Below are positions 371 to 10,356 of a DNA stretch of 40,987 nucleotides, piece after piece. The notes under the pieces were generated by a model. It saw only the letters and a program-made list of their open reading frames with translations. It was not told where the DNA came from and ran no database searches. The position numbers and the translations under genes are program-made. This DNA is from Deltaproteobacteria bacterium (GTDB taxonomy: Bacteria > Desulfobacterota > Syntrophia > Syntrophales > Smithellaceae): the NCBI GenBank assembly GCA_026388535.1, contig JAPLJP010000029.1, positions 1 through 40,987 on the forward strand, in the 5' to 3' direction. Position 1 is the stretch's first letter. Each line of letters opens with the position of its first letter.

Positions 371-940
371 ATGGCAAAGTTTAGTGTTCCCAGTGATGTA
401 ACCGTTGATGAATTTTTCGAAAAACATGTGCCTGCCCAGTTTAAAGAAATTACCGCCGGCGCGAATCTTTCATCTTTGGTTGGCAAAGAAGTTAATCTTC
501 AGTTTAATGTAAATGATCAGAAATACTGCCTGAAGATTAAAGATGGTACAAATCTGAATATAGTTAAGGGCGGAGTTGACAAACCCTTACTGACTCTGGC
601 GTTGTCCGAACAAATCTTTCTTGATTCCGTAACCGGAAAGATCGAAGGAATGATTGATCGCTTCACCGATCCCGTAGAAATCGCGAATCCTAGCAGGCTC
701 AAAGCCCTGATGGAAACCAAAGGCACCTTAAAGCTGAATTTGAAGAATGGTGACAACAATATCCCTGTGACAATGATTTTCAACGGTGAAGAAAAACCAA
801 ACGTGGAAATCAACGTTGACCTCAAAGACTGGATAGCAATACAAAACAAGGAAACCACCGGACAGAATCTTTTCATGAATGGCAAGTTGAAATTCACGGG
901 CGATATGGTTCTCCTTATGAAATTGCAGACCCTTATATAG
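371..940 (+). CDS. SCP2-like sterol/lipid carrier protein
   Basis: A 189-residue cytoplasmic protein with no signal peptide or membrane segment. The C-terminus (about residues 170-189) reads GKLKFTGDMVLLMKLQ, the typical end of the SCP2 sterol-carrier fold, which binds acyl-CoA or other hydrophobic ligands in a tunnel. The first half (residues 20-95) also resembles the early part of an SCP2 domain (VNLQFNV, then LTLALSE and TGKIEG), so the protein may hold two diverged SCP2-like units; SCP2 domains alone are about 100 residues. The start has a strong GGAGG site. Its promoter carries a palindromic operator, and a terminator follows, so it is probably transcribed alone. A role in delivering acyl-CoA to the downstream dehydrogenases is inference. 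Confidence 0.75.
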   Translation: MAKFSVPSDVTVDEFFEKHVPAQFKEITAGANLSSLVGKEVNLQFNVNDQKYCLKIKDGTNLNIVKGGVDKPLLTLALSEQIFLDSVTGKIEGMIDRFTDPVEIANPSRLKALMETKGTLKLNLKNGDNNIPVTMIFNGEEKPNVEINVDLKDWIAIQNKETTGQNLFMNGKLKFTGDMVLLMKLQTLI

Positions 941-1134: not shown

Positions 1135-2244
1135 ATGGAAGATAAAGAATTTGGTTTTAGTATGTCTGAAGAGCAAAGTAGCATGAAAGATACTGTTGCA
1201 AAACTGATTAAGAGTATGGTTGCAGGTAATCCTGCTCATGACATGGATGAGGAAAAAACCCTTCCCCGGGAAATTATTGATAAGGTTTGGGAACTGGGGG
1301 CCACGGTATCTATGGTACCAGAGGAATACGGCGGCTACGGTATGGAGTATTCCATGATCATGAACACGATTGTTCTGGAAGAGCTTGCTTCCGGCGATAT
1401 GGCGCTCGCAATTGCGGCAACGCTTCCCTCTATGTTTATTTTCACCATTCTGGAAATGGGCACTGAGGAGCAGAAGAAGAAATACTTATCATTATATTGC
1501 GATGCCGCCTATAAAGCGTGCTCTGTAGCGCTCAACGAACCGCGGTTCCAATTTGACGCGGTATCGTTGGAAACAAAAGCAGAGAAAAAAGGCGGAAAGT
1601 ATGTGCTCAACGGCAAGAAATGTTTTGTGCCGCTGGCAAAAGATTCCGGACACCTGCTGGTAGCGGCCAAGGCTGATGGGAAAATGGAACTATTTATTGT
1701 TGAAGGAAACAATCCGGGGCTGAAGATTGGCGAACGGGAGAAAAACCTCGGATTGTACGCGCTGGAGAGCTATCCGGTAGTTCTGGAGAACTGCGAAGTA
1801 TCCGCCGATAATCGTGTCGGAGGAGAAAAAGGATGCAATTACAGTAGATTCCTGCAAAAGACTCGCATAGCCATGTCCGCCATCGGTACGGGTGTGTCAC
1901 GCGCTTCTTTCGAGTACGCGCGGGATTACGCTAAAGAGCGGGTGCAGTTCGGGGAACCGATAGCTAGCCGTCAGGCGATAGCGTTCATGATCGCTGAAAT
2001 GGCTTACGAAGTTGACGCCATGAGACTTATGACGTGGAAAGCGGCGTCCGCGCTGGAAGCGGGCAGGGACGCGAAGCGGGAGTCCTATCTGGCAAAACTT
2101 TACGCCGGAGAAATGACTATGAAGACAACCGATTACGGGGTTCAGATTCTTGGTGGACACGGATATATCAGGGAAAATCCTGTAGAGCGGTATTATCGCA
2201 ATGGCAGAGCAATCGCCATTCTTGAAGCCATGGCAACGGTATAG
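1135..2244 (+). CDS. Acyl-CoA dehydrogenase family protein, alpha-type partner
   Basis: A 369-residue member of the acyl-CoA dehydrogenase (ACAD) family. The elements that bind the ADP half of FAD from the neighbouring subunit are intact: RVQFG at 269-273 and QILGGHG at 337-343. The flavin/substrate signature is degenerate: where active enzymes have TEPxxGSD this protein has NEPRFQFD (134-141), and the following W-[ST]-T-like strand reads FVPLAKD. A glutamate (E363) sits where the catalytic base is expected, but the protein stops six residues later, about 20 residues short of the family. It starts at an ATG behind AAGGAG and is 12 bases from the next ACAD gene. I infer it is the structural half of a heteromeric enzyme with its neighbour rather than an independent dehydrogenase. 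Confidence 0.85.
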   Translation: MEDKEFGFSMSEEQSSMKDTVAKLIKSMVAGNPAHDMDEEKTLPREIIDKVWELGATVSMVPEEYGGYGMEYSMIMNTIVLEELASGDMALAIAATLPSMFIFTILEMGTEEQKKKYLSLYCDAAYKACSVALNEPRFQFDAVSLETKAEKKGGKYVLNGKKCFVPLAKDSGHLLVAAKADGKMELFIVEGNNPGLKIGEREKNLGLYALESYPVVLENCEVSADNRVGGEKGCNYSRFLQKTRIAMSAIGTGVSRASFEYARDYAKERVQFGEPIASRQAIAFMIAEMAYEVDAMRLMTWKAASALEAGRDAKRESYLAKLYAGEMTMKTTDYGVQILGGHGYIRENPVERYYRNGRAIAILEAMATV

Positions 2245-2256
2245 GAGGAAGAAACT

Positions 2257-3453
2257 ATGATTAATCTTGAAATGACACAAAAGATGATTGATGTGAAAAA
2301 TGGCATGAATAACATGGCCACGAGCATGCTTCGGCCTATATCCAGATATTATGATGACAACGAGCATAAGTATCCTCAGGAGCTGGATATGTTTCGTTCG
2401 ATAAAGATAATGACCCGGCCGAAGAAGAAAAAGGAAGGCGAAGAGGCAAAGCCGGAAAAACAGGGATCGAAGAAACTGGGAACGAATCTGTCGACGGTTA
2501 TCGTCATTGAGGAGTTGTGCTGGGGAGACTTAGGAATGGTGCTATCGTTACCTAATGCGGGGTTGGGAAACGCCGCCATCGTGGCGGTGGCAACCGATGA
2601 ACAAATGGAACGATTTGGAGATAAATGGGCGTCCATGGCAATTACGGAACCCGGTTCCGGTTCTGATTCCGGATCCATCACAGCAAAGGCCACTTTGGAT
2701 GGCAATGAGTGGGTGCTCAACGGAGAAAAGATATTTGTAACATGCGCGGAGCGAGCCGACGTGGCGGTTATATGGGCCACTGTAGACAAAAGCGCCGGCA
2801 AGGCTGGAATAAAATCGTTTCTGGTGGAGAAGGACCGGCCTGGGTTCAAGCTAGAGAAACTGGAACACAAACTCGGTATCCGGGCCTCGGACACAGGAAC
2901 TTATGTTCTCGATGATTGTCGTATACCGAAAGATAATATTCTGGGAAGCGCTGAAGTTAAGCAATCAACCGAAGGATTCAGAGGCGCAATGAAGACCTTT
3001 GATAACACCCGGCCATTGGTAGCCTCAATGGCGTTGGGAGTAACCCGGGCGGCTCTAGATTTAACGCGCGAGAAACTTGAGGAAAGCGGCATCAAACTTG
3101 ATTACGAAAAAAATCCCAACAATGTGAGCGCGCTGGAAAAAGAATTTTACATGATGGAAGCAAATTTGGAAGCGATGCGGCTTCTGACCTGGCGGGCAGC
3201 GTGGATGATGGACAACGGAGATTTCAATAATCTTGAAGCGTCCATGTCCAAGGCAAAATCAGGACGTTGCGGAACATTGATCGTTCAGAAATGCTGCGAG
3301 CTTCTGGGACCCTTGGGTTTTTCTTGTGAAAATCTTGCCGAGAAGTGGATGCGGGATATCAAGATTACGGATATTTTCGAGGGAACGGGACAAATACAGC
3401 ATCTGATCGTTGCCCGCAATGTTCTCGGATATTCGAGTAAGCAACTCAAATAG
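2257..3453 (+). CDS. Acyl-CoA dehydrogenase, catalytic partner
   Basis: A 398-residue ACAD. The flavin/substrate signature is intact (ITEPGSGSD, 129-137, followed by FVTCAE), as is the catalytic base region (FEGTGQIQHLIVAR, with E375). By contrast, the arms that should contact the ADP part of FAD in the partner are lost: no RxxFG around 271-280 (REKLEESGIK), and the QxLGGxG loop reads ECLL-type sequence then GPLGF (351-355), with Gln replaced by Glu and the second Gly by Pro. Residues 54-75 form a Lys/Glu-rich insertion. The pattern is the mirror image of the upstream ACAD. The gene has a GGAGGAAG ribosome site 12 bases after the previous stop. The reaction expected is alpha,beta-desaturation of an acyl-CoA, with electrons passed to ETF; the substrate cannot be told from sequence. 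Confidence 0.88.
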   Translation: MINLEMTQKMIDVKNGMNNMATSMLRPISRYYDDNEHKYPQELDMFRSIKIMTRPKKKKEGEEAKPEKQGSKKLGTNLSTVIVIEELCWGDLGMVLSLPNAGLGNAAIVAVATDEQMERFGDKWASMAITEPGSGSDSGSITAKATLDGNEWVLNGEKIFVTCAERADVAVIWATVDKSAGKAGIKSFLVEKDRPGFKLEKLEHKLGIRASDTGTYVLDDCRIPKDNILGSAEVKQSTEGFRGAMKTFDNTRPLVASMALGVTRAALDLTREKLEESGIKLDYEKNPNNVSALEKEFYMMEANLEAMRLLTWRAAWMMDNGDFNNLEASMSKAKSGRCGTLIVQKCCELLGPLGFSCENLAEKWMRDIKITDIFEGTGQIQHLIVARNVLGYSSKQLK

Positions 3454-3950: not shown

Positions 3951-4415
3951 ATGGCGGACAAGTCAAAGTTAGGAATGGAATTTCCTGCTTACACTTATAC
4001 AGTTCAAAAAGATAAAATTGCTGAGTTTGCTGTTGCTGTTTCTCAAAAAGAGAATAAGGAAGAAATCAATCCTATTTACTATGATGAAGAAGCCGCGAAA
4101 AAAGCAGGTTATCAAGGGATACCTATTCCTCTGACCTTTCCCACCAATTCATTTTTTTGGACCGGCGGCGGCCTGATGGCTACAATTAAAACCCTGGGCA
4201 TTGATTTAAAGAAGCTTTTGCATAGAGAAGAAGAATATGAATATTTTGGCAGTATTTATGCGGGCGATGTCATTACACGCAAAATGAAAGTTATCGATAT
4301 TTTAAAAAAGGGGAACGGGGACAAGATTGTGGAGGTTACTATCCTGGAAACGAAACTGATAAATCAACGGGGCGAATTGGTGCTTAAGTCCCGCACAAGA
4401 TTGATGGAAAGATAG
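3951..4415 (+). CDS. MaoC/HotDog-fold dehydratase subunit, non-catalytic type
   Basis: A 154-residue HotDog-fold protein resembling the N-terminal MaoC dehydratase domain family (FAS1_DH / HadA type). Helix-loop residues are conserved (NPIYYDEEAAKKAGYQGI, about 41-58), but the hydratase-2 dyad is not: the G-D-x-N-P-L-H motif is replaced by E-I-N-P-I-Y, so the catalytic Asp and His are missing. Ten bases separate it from the next gene, which keeps the dyad. In known two-subunit members (for example mycobacterial HadAB) one subunit holds the acyl chain and the other supplies catalysis, and I infer the same here. The start has a GGAGGATG ribosome site. Confidence 0.8.
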   Translation: MADKSKLGMEFPAYTYTVQKDKIAEFAVAVSQKENKEEINPIYYDEEAAKKAGYQGIPIPLTFPTNSFFWTGGGLMATIKTLGIDLKKLLHREEEYEYFGSIYAGDVITRKMKVIDILKKGNGDKIVEVTILETKLINQRGELVLKSRTRLMER

Positions 4416-4425
4416 GAAGATCAAC

Positions 4426-4875
4426 ATGGCTTTAAAGTATGATGATATTGAAGTTGGAAACAAAATGCCCGTTTATACTTCCGCGCCCATTACCAGAACA
4501 CACCTGGTACGTTATGCTGGAGCCTCGGGTGATTTTAATCCACTTCATTATGATCAAACCTTCGTAAAAATGATTGGCAGGAAAAATGTTATTGCCCATG
4601 GTATGTTGATTATGGGTATCGCCGGCGAAGCCATAACTTCCTGGATCGAAAATAAATATTTAAGAAAATTTAATGCCCGTTTTTTGAGTATGACAGAACC
4701 GATAGATTGGGATGATATGGAAAACACAAAAGATAGAGCAACAATAATAGTCAGCGGCGAGATAGTCAAAAAGTTTGAAGAAAACGGCGAAAAAAGAATT
4801 CAGTGCGACATCATCGCTCAAGATGCATTAGGCAGCAAAAAACTATCAGGATTTTTTGTCGCGGCCCTGCCTTAA
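4426..4875 (+). CDS. MaoC-type enoyl-CoA hydratase/dehydratase, catalytic subunit
   Basis: A 149-residue HotDog-fold protein with the complete hydratase-2 motif YAGASGDFNPLHYD (30-43). D36 and H41 are the expected catalytic pair, and GMLIMG follows at the usual distance. It should hydrate a trans-2-enoyl-CoA to the 3-hydroxyacyl-CoA, the step after the acyl-CoA dehydrogenase. It is 10 bases downstream of its non-catalytic relative and probably pairs with it. No 3-hydroxyacyl-CoA dehydrogenase or thiolase is present here, so the rest of the cycle must be elsewhere. Confidence 0.85.
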   Translation: MALKYDDIEVGNKMPVYTSAPITRTHLVRYAGASGDFNPLHYDQTFVKMIGRKNVIAHGMLIMGIAGEAITSWIENKYLRKFNARFLSMTEPIDWDDMENTKDRATIIVSGEIVKKFEENGEKRIQCDIIAQDALGSKKLSGFFVAALP

Positions 4876-4932: not shown

Positions 4933-6276
4933 ATGAAAAAACATATTTTAGTGATTGATGACGACGCAGTCGCCTGCGAATTTCTGCAGGAGGTTCTGCG
5001 TCTTGACGGCTATGATGTTGCAACCTTTACATCCGCTCTGGAAGCTCTGAAACAAGAACTTTCGCAGTTTGACCTGCTCATGTCCGATATTCGCATGCCG
5101 GAAATGGATGGTTTGCAGTTTCTTGATCAGGTGCATAAAAAATGGCCGGATTTACCGGTTATTCTTATGACTGCTTATGGTTCTCTGGAAACAACAATGG
5201 AGGCAATAAGTCTGGGGGCTTGGGATTATATCAGTAAACCATTTTCACCGGAAGATTGCCGGTCTATTGTAAAAAAAGTGTTGGAAGTTCGAGAGCTACG
5301 TGAAAGGCGCATGGAATTGCAATCGGAAACAACCGCGGGGCCGAAATTGATTGGCTCGTCAGCGATGATGGTTGATTTCTACAAACAGATTGCCCGCATT
5401 GCCGATGCGCAGGCCAGTGTTTTAATAGAAGGTGAAAGCGGAACAGGAAAAGAATTAACTGCCCGGTCTTTACATAATATGTCTTCCCGCTGTGATAGAC
5501 CTTTTGTCGTCGTCCATTGCGGAGCTATCCCCGATAATTTGTTGGAATCTGAACTATTCGGTTATGAAAAAGGTTCATTTACCGGCGCTGATCACAAACA
5601 CTTGGGTTTGCTGGAATCCGCGGAAGGCGGAACAGTATTTCTCGATGAAATAACAGAAATGTCAACAGCTCTGCAAGGCAAGTTTTTGCGGTTTATGCAA
5701 AATGGCGAAATAAGAAGAATTGGCGGTCACGAAGTGCGTCATGCCGCTGTTCGCGTAGTCGCTGCCGCTAATAAAAATGTTGATGACGAAGTAAGCAAGG
5801 GAAGCTTTCGCCTGGATCTCCTGTATCGATTTATTGTGCGTTTGCGCGTTCCGCCATTGAGAGAACACAAAGAAGATATTCCGTTGCTCATTGAATCATT
5901 ACTGAAAAAGTTTGGTTATCCTAATGTGCGCATTTCTTTAAAAGCAATGGAGCTGCTCATGGCCTATAGCTGGCCGGGCAATGTGAGGGAGATGGAAAAT
6001 GTTCTCCAACAAACTTTGTTGCTTTCACCTTTCGTGGTTGTCCTCCCCGAAAATTTGCCGGAACATTTTCAGCAGCAAAAAAAGAAATCACCGGATGTTG
6101 CCCTGTTGAATATATCTCCATTAGAGGCAGCAGAAAGAGAAAAGATAATACAAACCCTCAAAGAAACTTCCTGGAATCAATCCAGAGCCGCACAGCTTTT
6201 GGGTATTGATCGGAAAACATTGCGCCTGAAAATTCGCCGTTATGGTTTATTGGACGAAAAACTTTCCGCGGATTAA
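4933..6276 (+). CDS. NtrC-family sigma-54-dependent response regulator
   Basis: A 447-residue three-domain regulator. The receiver domain (1-120) has acidic residues D9-D11, phospho-acceptor D52 in LLMSDIRMP, T80 and K102. The AAA+ domain (about 140-375) has Walker A GESGTGKE, the sigma-54 contact loop as GSFTGA rather than the usual GAFTGA, and Walker B GGTVFLDEI. The C-terminal Fis-type helix-turn-helix (about 400-440) contains NQSRAAQLLGIDRKTLRLKI. It should activate sigma-54 promoters when phosphorylated. A membrane histidine kinase at 7956-9509 is the likely partner. No strong ribosome site is visible. A decayed copy of its last 45 codons lies at 7751-7907. Confidence 0.93.
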   Translation: MKKHILVIDDDAVACEFLQEVLRLDGYDVATFTSALEALKQELSQFDLLMSDIRMPEMDGLQFLDQVHKKWPDLPVILMTAYGSLETTMEAISLGAWDYISKPFSPEDCRSIVKKVLEVRELRERRMELQSETTAGPKLIGSSAMMVDFYKQIARIADAQASVLIEGESGTGKELTARSLHNMSSRCDRPFVVVHCGAIPDNLLESELFGYEKGSFTGADHKHLGLLESAEGGTVFLDEITEMSTALQGKFLRFMQNGEIRRIGGHEVRHAAVRVVAAANKNVDDEVSKGSFRLDLLYRFIVRLRVPPLREHKEDIPLLIESLLKKFGYPNVRISLKAMELLMAYSWPGNVREMENVLQQTLLLSPFVVVLPENLPEHFQQQKKKSPDVALLNISPLEAAEREKIIQTLKETSWNQSRAAQLLGIDRKTLRLKIRRYGLLDEKLSAD

Positions 6277-6683: not shown

Positions 6684-7205
6684 ATGAAAAAATTTGTATT
6701 ACCAATTTTGTTGTTGTTTTCGTCGTTCTTCGTTCAGGGGTGTGTTCCAGGTTCGGTTAATCTGATTAAAAATTTATCAGAACCACTGACAAATTACAAG
6801 TCTGTAGCGGTTAAAGTGGAATGTTCCGAGGCTATACCTGCAGATACGAAGGCGGAAGCTGTCGCGATGGTAAAAAATATGTTTATCAGCAAGCTCACCG
6901 AAACAAAAAAATTCCAGGATATTTACAACTATGATGAAGCCAAAGATAAAGCACAGCTATGGATTGAGGTTAAAGTAACCGACTTTGCCAAGGATTGCCC
7001 TTGTAAATACAAACCTAGTCGCCCCTGTGCAAAGGTAAGTCTTGATGGCAGTTTCATTAACGCAAAAACAAATTTAATAATAGGCGAGATTGATGCCAAA
7101 AGCGACTACATAATTAGGGCAATAAAACCATATAATACAAAGATTGAAGTGGCCGCATCTTTTGCTATTTCGCATATAATTGATTTTATCGCACAAAGCA
7201 AATAA
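6684..7205 (+). CDS. Predicted lipoprotein, first of a tandem pair
   Basis: A 173-residue exported protein. Residues 1-20 are a lipoprotein signal peptide (MKK, a Leu/Phe-rich core, lipobox VQGC) with the acylated cysteine at C20. The mature part contains NYKSVAVKVECS, a helix-rich middle and a Cys pair (CPCKY), and ends in an alpha-helical segment; the layout resembles DUF4410-like outer-membrane lipoproteins, but I do not recognise a specific function. An AGAGGAG ribosome site precedes it. Its signal peptide and ribosome site are nearly the same as those of the following gene, while the mature proteins are unrelated at first sight. Confidence 0.75.
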   Translation: MKKFVLPILLLFSSFFVQGCVPGSVNLIKNLSEPLTNYKSVAVKVECSEAIPADTKAEAVAMVKNMFISKLTETKKFQDIYNYDEAKDKAQLWIEVKVTDFAKDCPCKYKPSRPCAKVSLDGSFINAKTNLIIGEIDAKSDYIIRAIKPYNTKIEVAASFAISHIIDFIAQSK

Positions 7206-7227
7206 ACTTAAAGTGAGGAGGCGTAAA

Positions 7228-7704
7228 ATGAAAAAAATTATATTACCAATTTTGTTATTGTTTTCGTTGTTCTTCATTTCGGGGTGTGTACCGGGTTCTG
7301 TTAATGGATCTCAGCCGCAGTTCAAGACCATTGAAGTGAAGCATTTCACGCAGGCGGACGGCTTAGTTATTTCTCAGGATTTTTTCAACGGCTTCTACGA
7401 TCGTTTCCGCAAATATCTGAAAGAATTGCAAGTGGCAGGTCAGATTATCGAAGAAGGAGCCACGATGCCTGACGCCGACGCCGCAAACGCTGTTGTTGTC
7501 GAAGGCAAATTCACTGATTACAAGAATGCGGGATGGTTTGAACGTGCAGTGGTAAGCTTGGAGGTTAATTTGTATCGTAAGAGCGATCATACGCTGATCA
7601 AAACTATCCCAGTGATGCTTCATGATAATACACCTTTTGACAAAGTTAAAGGGGAGAAAATGGGGCGCTATACCGCCAACGAAATTTATAAAGCCTTGAA
7701 GTAA
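7228..7704 (+). CDS. Predicted lipoprotein, DUF4410-like, second of the pair
   Basis: The best start is the ATG at 7228, directly behind GTGAGGAGGCG; an upstream ATG at 7180 lacks a ribosome site and would bury the signal peptide. The 158-residue product has a lipoprotein signal ending ISGC (Cys20). The mature part contains IEVKHFTQADGL, a helical stretch and VVVEGKFTDYKNAG followed by a beta-strand-rich end, a pattern seen in DUF4410-type lipoproteins of proteobacteria. The function is unknown. It is 22 bases downstream of the first lipoprotein and probably co-transcribed. Confidence 0.75.
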   Translation: MKKIILPILLLFSLFFISGCVPGSVNGSQPQFKTIEVKHFTQADGLVISQDFFNGFYDRFRKYLKELQVAGQIIEEGATMPDADAANAVVVEGKFTDYKNAGWFERAVVSLEVNLYRKSDHTLIKTIPVMLHDNTPFDKVKGEKMGRYTANEIYKALK

Positions 7705-9993: not shown

Positions 9994-10356
9994 TTATTTT
10001 ACAGCGGGAGCTGCTTCTTCAGCTTTCTTTTCGGCGGCTGCTTTTTTAGCGGCTTTCTTTTCGGCTTTAGCTTTCTTAGCGGCTGCTTTCTTTTCAGCGG
10101 CTGCTTTCTTAGCGGCTGCTTTCTTCTCAGCTTTGGCTTTCTTTGCATCAGCCTTTACAGCGGCTTCATCCTTTACATCGGCAGCCTTTACAGCGGCATC
10201 AGCCTTTACATCAGCAGCCTTTACCTTCGCATCAGCCTTTACATCAGCAGCTTTTACGGCTGCTTTATCAGCCTTTACGGCTGCTTTATCAGCCGCCATT
10301 ACGGTCATGGAAAATGCGAAAACCAATGCAACAACAAACAATACTAAACGCTTCAT
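9994..10356 (-). CDS. Exported low-complexity Lys/Ala-rich repeat protein
   Basis: A 120-residue protein with a clear signal peptide (MKRLVLFVVALVFAFSMTVMA) and predicted cleavage after AMA-type residues near 22. The mature part has two repeat zones: units like AAVKAADVKAD (about 25-70), then KKAAAEKKAAAKKAKAEKK units (72-115). It should be a long, highly charged helix, resembling histone-H1-like or TolA-like Ala/Lys tails. I cannot assign a function. A GGAGG site precedes the start and a strong terminator follows. The opposite-strand frames here are by-products of the repeat. Confidence 0.8.
   Translation of the reverse strand: MKRLVLFVVALVFAFSMTVMAADKAAVKADKAAVKAADVKADAKVKAADVKADAAVKAADVKDEAAVKADAKKAKAEKKAAAKKAAAEKKAAAKKAKAEKKAAKKAAAEKKAEEAAPAVK

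Follow-up and report, generated by a model that had tools for sequence, protein, structure and literature searches.

In ordinary homo-oligomeric acyl-CoA dehydrogenases (ACADs), as known from MCAD, each flavin adenine dinucleotide (FAD) is bound between two chains, one contributing its flavin side and the partner its adenosine diphosphate (ADP) side, so that a homodimer has two equal sites; the motifs RxxFG and QxxGGxG contact the ADP part from the partner chain. IpdE1-IpdE2 (6wy8/6wy9) of steroid-degrading bacteria is reportedly a heteromeric ACAD made of two chains. An excerpt of PMC11153573 describes ChsE4-ChsE5, in which the alpha chain holds the isoalloxazine, the catalytic glutamate and the substrate and the beta chain holds the ADP-ribose. 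The FadE23-FadE24 pair of Mycobacterium tuberculosis is termed a complex in an excerpt of PMC11980559. The window analysed here, that is, the whole stretch of 40,987 nucleotides, is the start of a contig (JAPLJP010000029.1) in a 2.86 Mb draft genome of a Deltaproteobacteria bacterium (Smithellaceae), whose named relatives are Smithella metagenome-assembled genomes and other Deltaproteobacteria. Its subject is a tandem pair of ACAD genes, referred to as A and B, identified by Pfam ACAD domains and motif alignment:

1135..2244, + strand: protein A, 369 aa, beta-type (ADP-side) ACAD subunit
2257..3453, + strand: protein B, 398 aa, alpha-type (catalytic, flavin-side) ACAD subunit

Judged from their sequences, A is very probably the beta and B the alpha subunit of a single heteromeric ACAD, most likely alpha2beta2, of the FadE24-FadE23 line. 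That they form a heteromer with a composite FAD site is the firmer part of this proposal and is highly probable, while the oligomeric state and the FAD stoichiometry are predictions. The stop codon of A and the ATG of B are 12 nt apart and the two genes share a reading frame. Pfam recognises the ACAD domains in both proteins, the N-domain of B scoring barely above the cut-off. In NCBIfam neither reaches any cut-off, and the top sub-threshold match of both is the acryloyl-CoA reductase AcrC.

Division of the FAD site between A and B

Alignment, for the replaced motifs against ordinary ACADs, places the elements of the FAD site as follows, all on the + strand:

1534..1557: A, NEPRFQFD in place of TEPxxGSD (flavin side lost)
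1618..1632: A, KCFVP in place of KxFI/VT (Pro in 52/58 A)
1939..1953: A, RVQFG (residues 269-273), ADP-side FAD motif retained
2143..2163: A, QILGGHG (residues 337-343), ADP-side FAD loop retained
2224..2241: A, Glu364 at the catalytic column, then five residues to the chain end, a truncation conserved in 58/58 A
2644..2667: B, TEPGSGSD (residues 130-137), flavin-side motif retained
2728..2742: B, KIFVT, flavin-side motif retained
3094..3108: B, KLDYE in place of RxxFG (ADP side lost)
3298..3318: B, ELLGPLG in place of QxxGGxG (ADP side lost)
3376..3399: B, FEGTGQIQ with catalytic Glu375 (Glu in 59/60 B, the remaining one cut)

The division was counted in a single alignment of 58 A, 60 B and 49 ordinary ACAD controls, in which near-identical Smithella copies are included and from which, as from the neighbour counts over 59 loci, the remote pair L075 (a 28/37% pair) and the paralogues L154-L157 are omitted. 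On the flavin side, the Thr of TEP, the Ser/Thr of GSD and the Thr/Ser of KxFVT are each found in 0/58 A, 60/60 B and 49/49 controls, and the Thr of EGT in 1/58 A, 59/60 B (the other B is cut) and 41/49 controls. On the ADP side the picture is reversed: the Arg of RxxFG is present in 58/58 A, 3/60 B and 49/49 controls, the Phe of the same motif in 58/58, 0/60 (58 B have Tyr) and 49/49, the Gln of QxxGGxG in 53/58, 0/60 and 49/49, and the second Gly of GGxG in 58/58, 1/60 and 49/49. B retains the Gly of RxxFG in 22/60 sequences, columns that are less certain owing to an alignment insertion in this stretch of B, and the first and third Gly of the loop in 59/60 each. Beyond the catalytic column there are five residues in A (58/58), 23 in B (59/60, the other cut) and 15-30 in the controls. 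Neither protein is thus of the ordinary ACAD type, each being without residues found in 49/49 controls; every ordinary chain has both FAD half-sites, whereas A and B have one half each. The reciprocal loss had been noticed in a reading of the sequence alone, and the alignment confirms it, with the coordinates right and the split nearly fixed over all three sets.

Association, selection and docking

Among 198 genomes of the phylum, the B family (E<=1e-100) occurs in 23 and the A family (E<=1e-124) in the identical 23; the next A-profile score, 1e-104, belongs to a genome without B. By coordinates A lies immediately upstream of B in 23/23, the A open reading frame of one genome lacking ~100 N-terminal residues. 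In this sample scoring covered the 8-9 best candidates in each genome, which makes the paralogue counts minimum values. At E<=1e-60, 51 genomes of the family hold B in 11 and A in 13, the two surplus A matches being a gene cut by its contig after residue 211 and a 34% match in a genome without the pair. In the pair loci, 20 of which were chosen because the pair was already known there, A adjoins B, upstream of it, in 57/59, and both misses are contigs starting within B. After removal of ten near copies (L129-L134 are unused as repeats of L044-L050), A stands beside B in 47/49 dereplicated pair loci vs 5/48 ordinary-ACAD loci.

Outside these counts, the 23 genomes hold at least four extra B genes, one (L157) with an A-like neighbour and three (L154, L155 and L156) with no adjoining A. 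At L154 (2650-5775) the B-type gene follows an SCP2 gene and a thiolase-like gene, the latter named from sequence, and at L157 (4182-6406) remote A-like and B-like genes adjoin, the B family score being below the rest. The sequence-only reading had asked whether either gene occurs without the other: 0/198 genomes have the A family without the B family, whereas the B paralogues at L154-L156 do stand without an adjoining A.

The distances of A and B are correlated (r=0.83, 37 taxa, L052 and L075 omitted), with 0/5000 permutations as high, and their trees have 15/24 splits in common against a random maximum of 3 (2000 trees), although shared descent of the locus also explains both results. Splits with support >=95 that occur in one tree only number none for A and two for B. 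Of the two, A is the faster-evolving protein, with a mean distance ratio of 1.46. Purifying selection acts on both genes, the ratio of nonsynonymous to synonymous substitution (dN/dS) being 0.037-0.056 for A (vs five relatives) and 0.022-0.042 for B, with synonymous sites near saturation.

A model of A and B as one fused chain, joined by an artificial five-residue linker, reached a predicted template modelling score (pTM) of 0.90 and a mean predicted local distance difference test score (pLDDT) of 87.3, which is compatible with a heteromer and no proof of it. A fold search with this model returned ordinary ACADs one half at a time. Since single ordinary ACAD chains cover the model at TM 0.41-0.44, the high pTM reflects confident relative placement of the two halves. 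In the proposed enzyme B would supply isoalloxazine binding, the substrate pocket and catalytic Glu375, and the ADP half of FAD would be bound by the Arg/Phe and Gln/Gly-Gly residues of A; the other would-be site would be without both halves, so that one working FAD per A-B dimer is expected. The suggestion of one complete FAD site per heterodimer thus gains support from the motifs, co-occurrence and adjacency, largely congruent trees, purifying selection, fused-model docking and the division described for ChsE4-ChsE5 in an excerpt of PMC11153573.

Relatives, neighbours and candidate substrate

A search of a plasmid collection found B relatives 49-54% identical in Nocardia, Rhodococcus, Tsukamurella and Acinetobacter records, and in all four that were fetched A lies upstream. 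Compared with the window, B is 54-55% and A 36-37% identical in L142-L144, and in a quick tree the L142 and L144 rows fall within the A clade (99) and the B clade (100); L142 is without annotation. The gene hisN, which we take to be the same as impC, is directly followed by the pair in Tsukamurella (L144), and in Rhodococcus DN22 (L143) a gap of 1.4 kb with two opposite-strand genes lies between. The gene order in M. tuberculosis is impC (Rv3137), pflA, fadE24, fadE23 and fadB4, according to an excerpt of PMC2834668. The hisN-linked orthologous pairs and this gene order together point to A as a member of the FadE24 line and B as a member of the FadE23 line, a putative link to Rv3139 (FadE24) and Rv3140 (FadE23) that is made through orthologue synteny. 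The A-B gene order is common to both systems. Smithella A is shorter than its actinobacterial counterpart (369 vs 455-468 aa), whose N-terminal extension it lacks, and the pair here has SCP2 and MaoC neighbours and an anaerobic host. The earlier confinement of the pair to this anaerobic group was too narrow, for such pairs, or relatives of B, are likewise present in records named Nocardia, Rhodococcus, Tsukamurella, Acinetobacter, Turneriella and Salinisphaeraceae. Pairs 77-84% identical to that of the window occur in two records titled Spirochaetes (L049 and L051). The solved structures nearest in sequence to both families, among the best 60 Protein Data Bank (PDB) matches, are ACADs of the SCAD, butyryl-CoA dehydrogenase and MCAD types; among the best 60 per family profile no structure of the A/B clade was found, the top matches being ordinary ACADs. 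No paper on this pair in anaerobes was found in one open-access library, as judged from listings.

The genes around the pair in the window are:

371..940, + strand: stand-alone SCP2-domain protein, 189 aa, upstream neighbour (Pfam SCP2, 61.5 bits)
3951..4415, + strand: HadA-like hot-dog (MaoC-type) hydratase partner, 154 aa (Pfam FAS1_DH_region, 94.9 bits; NCBIfam HadA, 66 bits, below the 180-bit cut-off)
4426..4875, + strand: HadB-like MaoC hydratase, 149 aa, containing ASGDFNPLH, a segment taken to be catalytic (Pfam MaoC_dehydratas, 61.1 bits; NCBIfam HadB, 85 bits, below the 203-bit cut-off)
4933..6276, + strand: NtrC-type response regulator, by synteny the downstream neighbour in most Smithella loci (named from its translation, without a family search)

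The SCP2 gene precedes A in Smithella loci holding the window-type pair, and an SCP2 protein also adjoins the B genes of L154 and L161. A second HadA/HadB-like MaoC pair, 55% and 66% identical, lies between two ACAD genes of the same genome (L140, 6846-7789, - strand). Two genomes of the same genus (G010 and G011) have HadA, HadB and regulator genes 76-91% identical to those of the window, but an A of 45% and a B of 54%, and their type of B is 77% identical to that of a genome from another family (L161); the unlike identity of A and B against the conserved downstream genes indicates that the pair has been exchanged as a unit. In G014 the HadA, HadB and regulator genes are farther away, behind an inserted gene that clusters with a radical SAM/B12 protein; the regulator was the only one of the three found in G013. 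At L127 (11017-12612) a gene inserted between B and HadA clusters with a radical SAM/B12-binding protein that L071 and L073 carry close to the pair. Elsewhere in the window, two small lipoprotein-like genes with very similar N-termini stand in succession at 6684-7704, and 9994-10356 (- strand) encodes a small protein of secreted type that consists almost entirely of Ala, Lys, Glu, Asp and Val repeats.

Across lineages the surroundings vary. MaoC, SDR, thiolase and CoA-transferase genes lie near the pair in L056/L058/L059, 3-hydroxyacyl-CoA dehydrogenase in L049/L051/L054, acyl-CoA ligase in L063, L065 and L066, and electron-transfer flavoprotein (ETF) genes downstream in L055. No neighbour besides A is a family trait in 49 dereplicated loci compared with 48 controls, in single-sequence searches that remote members may escape. 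Within 4.5 kb on the same strand, SCP2 is found in 2/49 pair loci vs 0/48 controls, MaoC in 7/49 vs 1/48 (p=0.059), crotonase-type hydratase in 2/49 vs 16/48 and thiolase in 6/49 vs 15/48. The informative neighbours, where present, are beta-oxidation genes. A fatty acyl-CoA is the somewhat favoured substrate class, with a little better than an even chance: alpha,beta-dehydrogenation would yield an enoyl-CoA for the adjoining HadA/HadB-like MaoC hydratase, and the electrons would leave through ETF.

The sequence-only reading had likened the pair to the ChsE enzymes of steroid side-chain degradation and suggested an unusual bulky or cyclic acyl-CoA as substrate. A ChsE-type dehydrogenase, that is, the same heteromer acting on a steroid side chain or a bulky ring-bearing acyl-CoA, is unlikely. 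The yardstick for this comparison was a set of Nocardia pairs, in which the L146 beta chain scores 297 bits against 4x28_D, the best match of the L148 alpha chain is 4x28_A, and the L146 alpha chain was assigned by adjacency. The Nocardia ChsE4/ChsE5-type pair divides the motifs on the very columns where A and B do. An equal alpha/beta division is given in an excerpt of PMC11153573 for ChsE4-ChsE5 and ChsE1-ChsE2 (FadE26-FadE27, FadE28-FadE29), which are alpha2beta2 steroid side-chain dehydrogenases. The adjoining MaoC pair and SCP2 gene recall ChsH1-ChsH2 and Ltp2 of the igr operon, as presented in an excerpt of PMC12502768, and approximately unbiased (AU) tests leave unions of A with ChsE-type beta chains (p 0.163) and of B with ChsE-type alpha chains (p 0.213) unrejected. 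However, five Nocardia ChsE-type pairs form alpha and beta groups separate from A and B in the quick tree, where the A and B clades, each apart from these rows, have approximate likelihood ratio (SH-aLRT) supports of 99 and 100. ChsE and IpdE chains (4x28, 6wy8) are missing from the 60 best PDB matches for either family profile, A or B, yet they top the lists for both Nocardia ChsE-type proteins searched. At the column where Glu is usual, both Nocardia alpha chains that were examined carry Gly, whereas B retains Glu. IpdE1-IpdE2 resembles the present pair as a two-chain ACAD, and the NCBIfam IpdE2 profile matches A weakly (53.6 of 450 bits). A Pfam scan of 30 neighbour proteins showed no steroid-specific family, general beta-oxidation or unrelated genes standing there instead, and the SCP2 gene, MaoC pair and response regulator around the window pair do not make a steroid catabolic neighbourhood. 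A steroid role drawn from SCP2 and the MaoC pair was rejected, since at 2/49 and 7/49 dereplicated loci these are not family traits. FadE23-FadE24 is reported to be repressed by cholesterol in an excerpt of PMC11980559. By sequence, A/B and the ChsE-type chains are different clades; convergence is not proven, and the tests leave room for a distant shared ancestry. Neither a place in the ChsE steroid group nor a steroid or cyclic substrate is supported, as the relatives point to the FadE24-FadE23 line and the neighbours vary by lineage.

Several observations weigh against a heteromeric fatty acyl-CoA dehydrogenase. A keeps the Glu of TEP in 57/58 and the Asp of GSD in 44/58, its catalytic column is still acidic in 52/58 (Glu 40, Asp 12), and three B retain the Arg of RxxFG. 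Three B paralogues (L154-L156) have no adjoining A, in genomes that carry the full pair elsewhere. Any two ACADs may dock as the usual family dimer, and the pTM is no proof that the heteromer is preferred. The variable neighbours constrain the substrate weakly. Finally, an excerpt of PMC11980559 credits the FadE23-FadE24 complex with a catalytic activity distinct from acyl-CoA dehydrogenation, and an excerpt of PMC12323669, which also suggests activity beyond dehydrogenation, holds that FadE23 and FadE24 may both bind ATP. These reports, and the sub-threshold AcrC match of both proteins, would fit a pair that catalyses another flavin- or nucleotide-dependent acyl-CoA reaction, such as one in the reductase direction or an ATP-linked step. 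This has a small probability, like that of the ChsE-type enzyme, as the catalytic Glu and the Thr of EGT are kept in every B but the cut one, and the ETF genes of L055 and further beta-oxidation genes in several lineages speak for dehydrogenation. A shade less probable again is that B binds FAD without the usual ADP contacts and that the role of A is accessory, regulatory or in assembly, without completing the FAD site; the B paralogues without an adjoining A and the faster evolution of A would fit such a role, but A keeps both the Arg and the Phe of RxxFG, as well as the glycines of GGxG, in 58/58 while its flavin-side Thr/Ser are gone, and none of the 198 genomes has the A family alone. Decay of two degenerating duplicates with accidental complementarity has practically no probability and is ruled out together with artefact, for although motifs of ordinary ACADs are missing from both proteins, the split is conserved, with identical losses over several phyla, and dN/dS is <0.06 in both genes.

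Further split pairs and wider meaning

Besides A and B, the same genome has three more tandem ACAD pairs with reciprocal half-site loss, on three contigs (C12, C91 and C157): L135 281-2784 (- strand), L136 5964-8609 (- strand) and L137 5574-8216 (+ strand). Their ADP-side chain has Gly in place of the Phe of RxxFG, and the three pairs form a separate tree group. In a further tandem pair of this genome (L138, 5984-8611, - strand, contig C182) neither chain has a complete FAD site, and in the tandem pair L141 both chains are essentially complete, the second with one Gln replaced by Glu. In a free tree the alpha group adjoins its own beta group in the ChsE/IpdE line and in the L135-L137 line (support 93 and 87), and A and B lie within one 40-row set together with two ordinary ACADs (95). 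It is tentatively proposed, at slightly less than an even chance, that the ACAD was split into flavin-side and ADP-side subunits several times independently, in the FadE24/FadE23, ChsE/IpdE and L135-L137 lines, through duplication and reciprocal loss; the AU tests reject no single-origin union (p 0.163, 0.213).

The two-subunit kind of ACAD is known from mycobacteria; here a member is found in an anaerobic bacterium, and the family appears to be old and widespread. Heteromeric ACADs are discussed mainly for steroid catabolism in excerpts of PMC12502768 and PMC11153573. The half-site design described here spans records named as syntrophs, sulfate reducers, spirochaetes, Dehalococcoidia, actinobacteria and gammaproteobacteria, some of them in beta-oxidation settings. 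Annotated records label each gene as a plain acyl-CoA dehydrogenase family protein; if A and B do form one heteromeric enzyme, expression of either gene singly would give flavin-poor or inactive protein. The family also gives access to harmless environmental orthologues with which to study the function of the FadE23-FadE24 complex. If the repeated origin is true, two-chain, half-FAD ACADs would be a design that recurs in bacterial lipid oxidation, well outside steroids and the actinobacteria.

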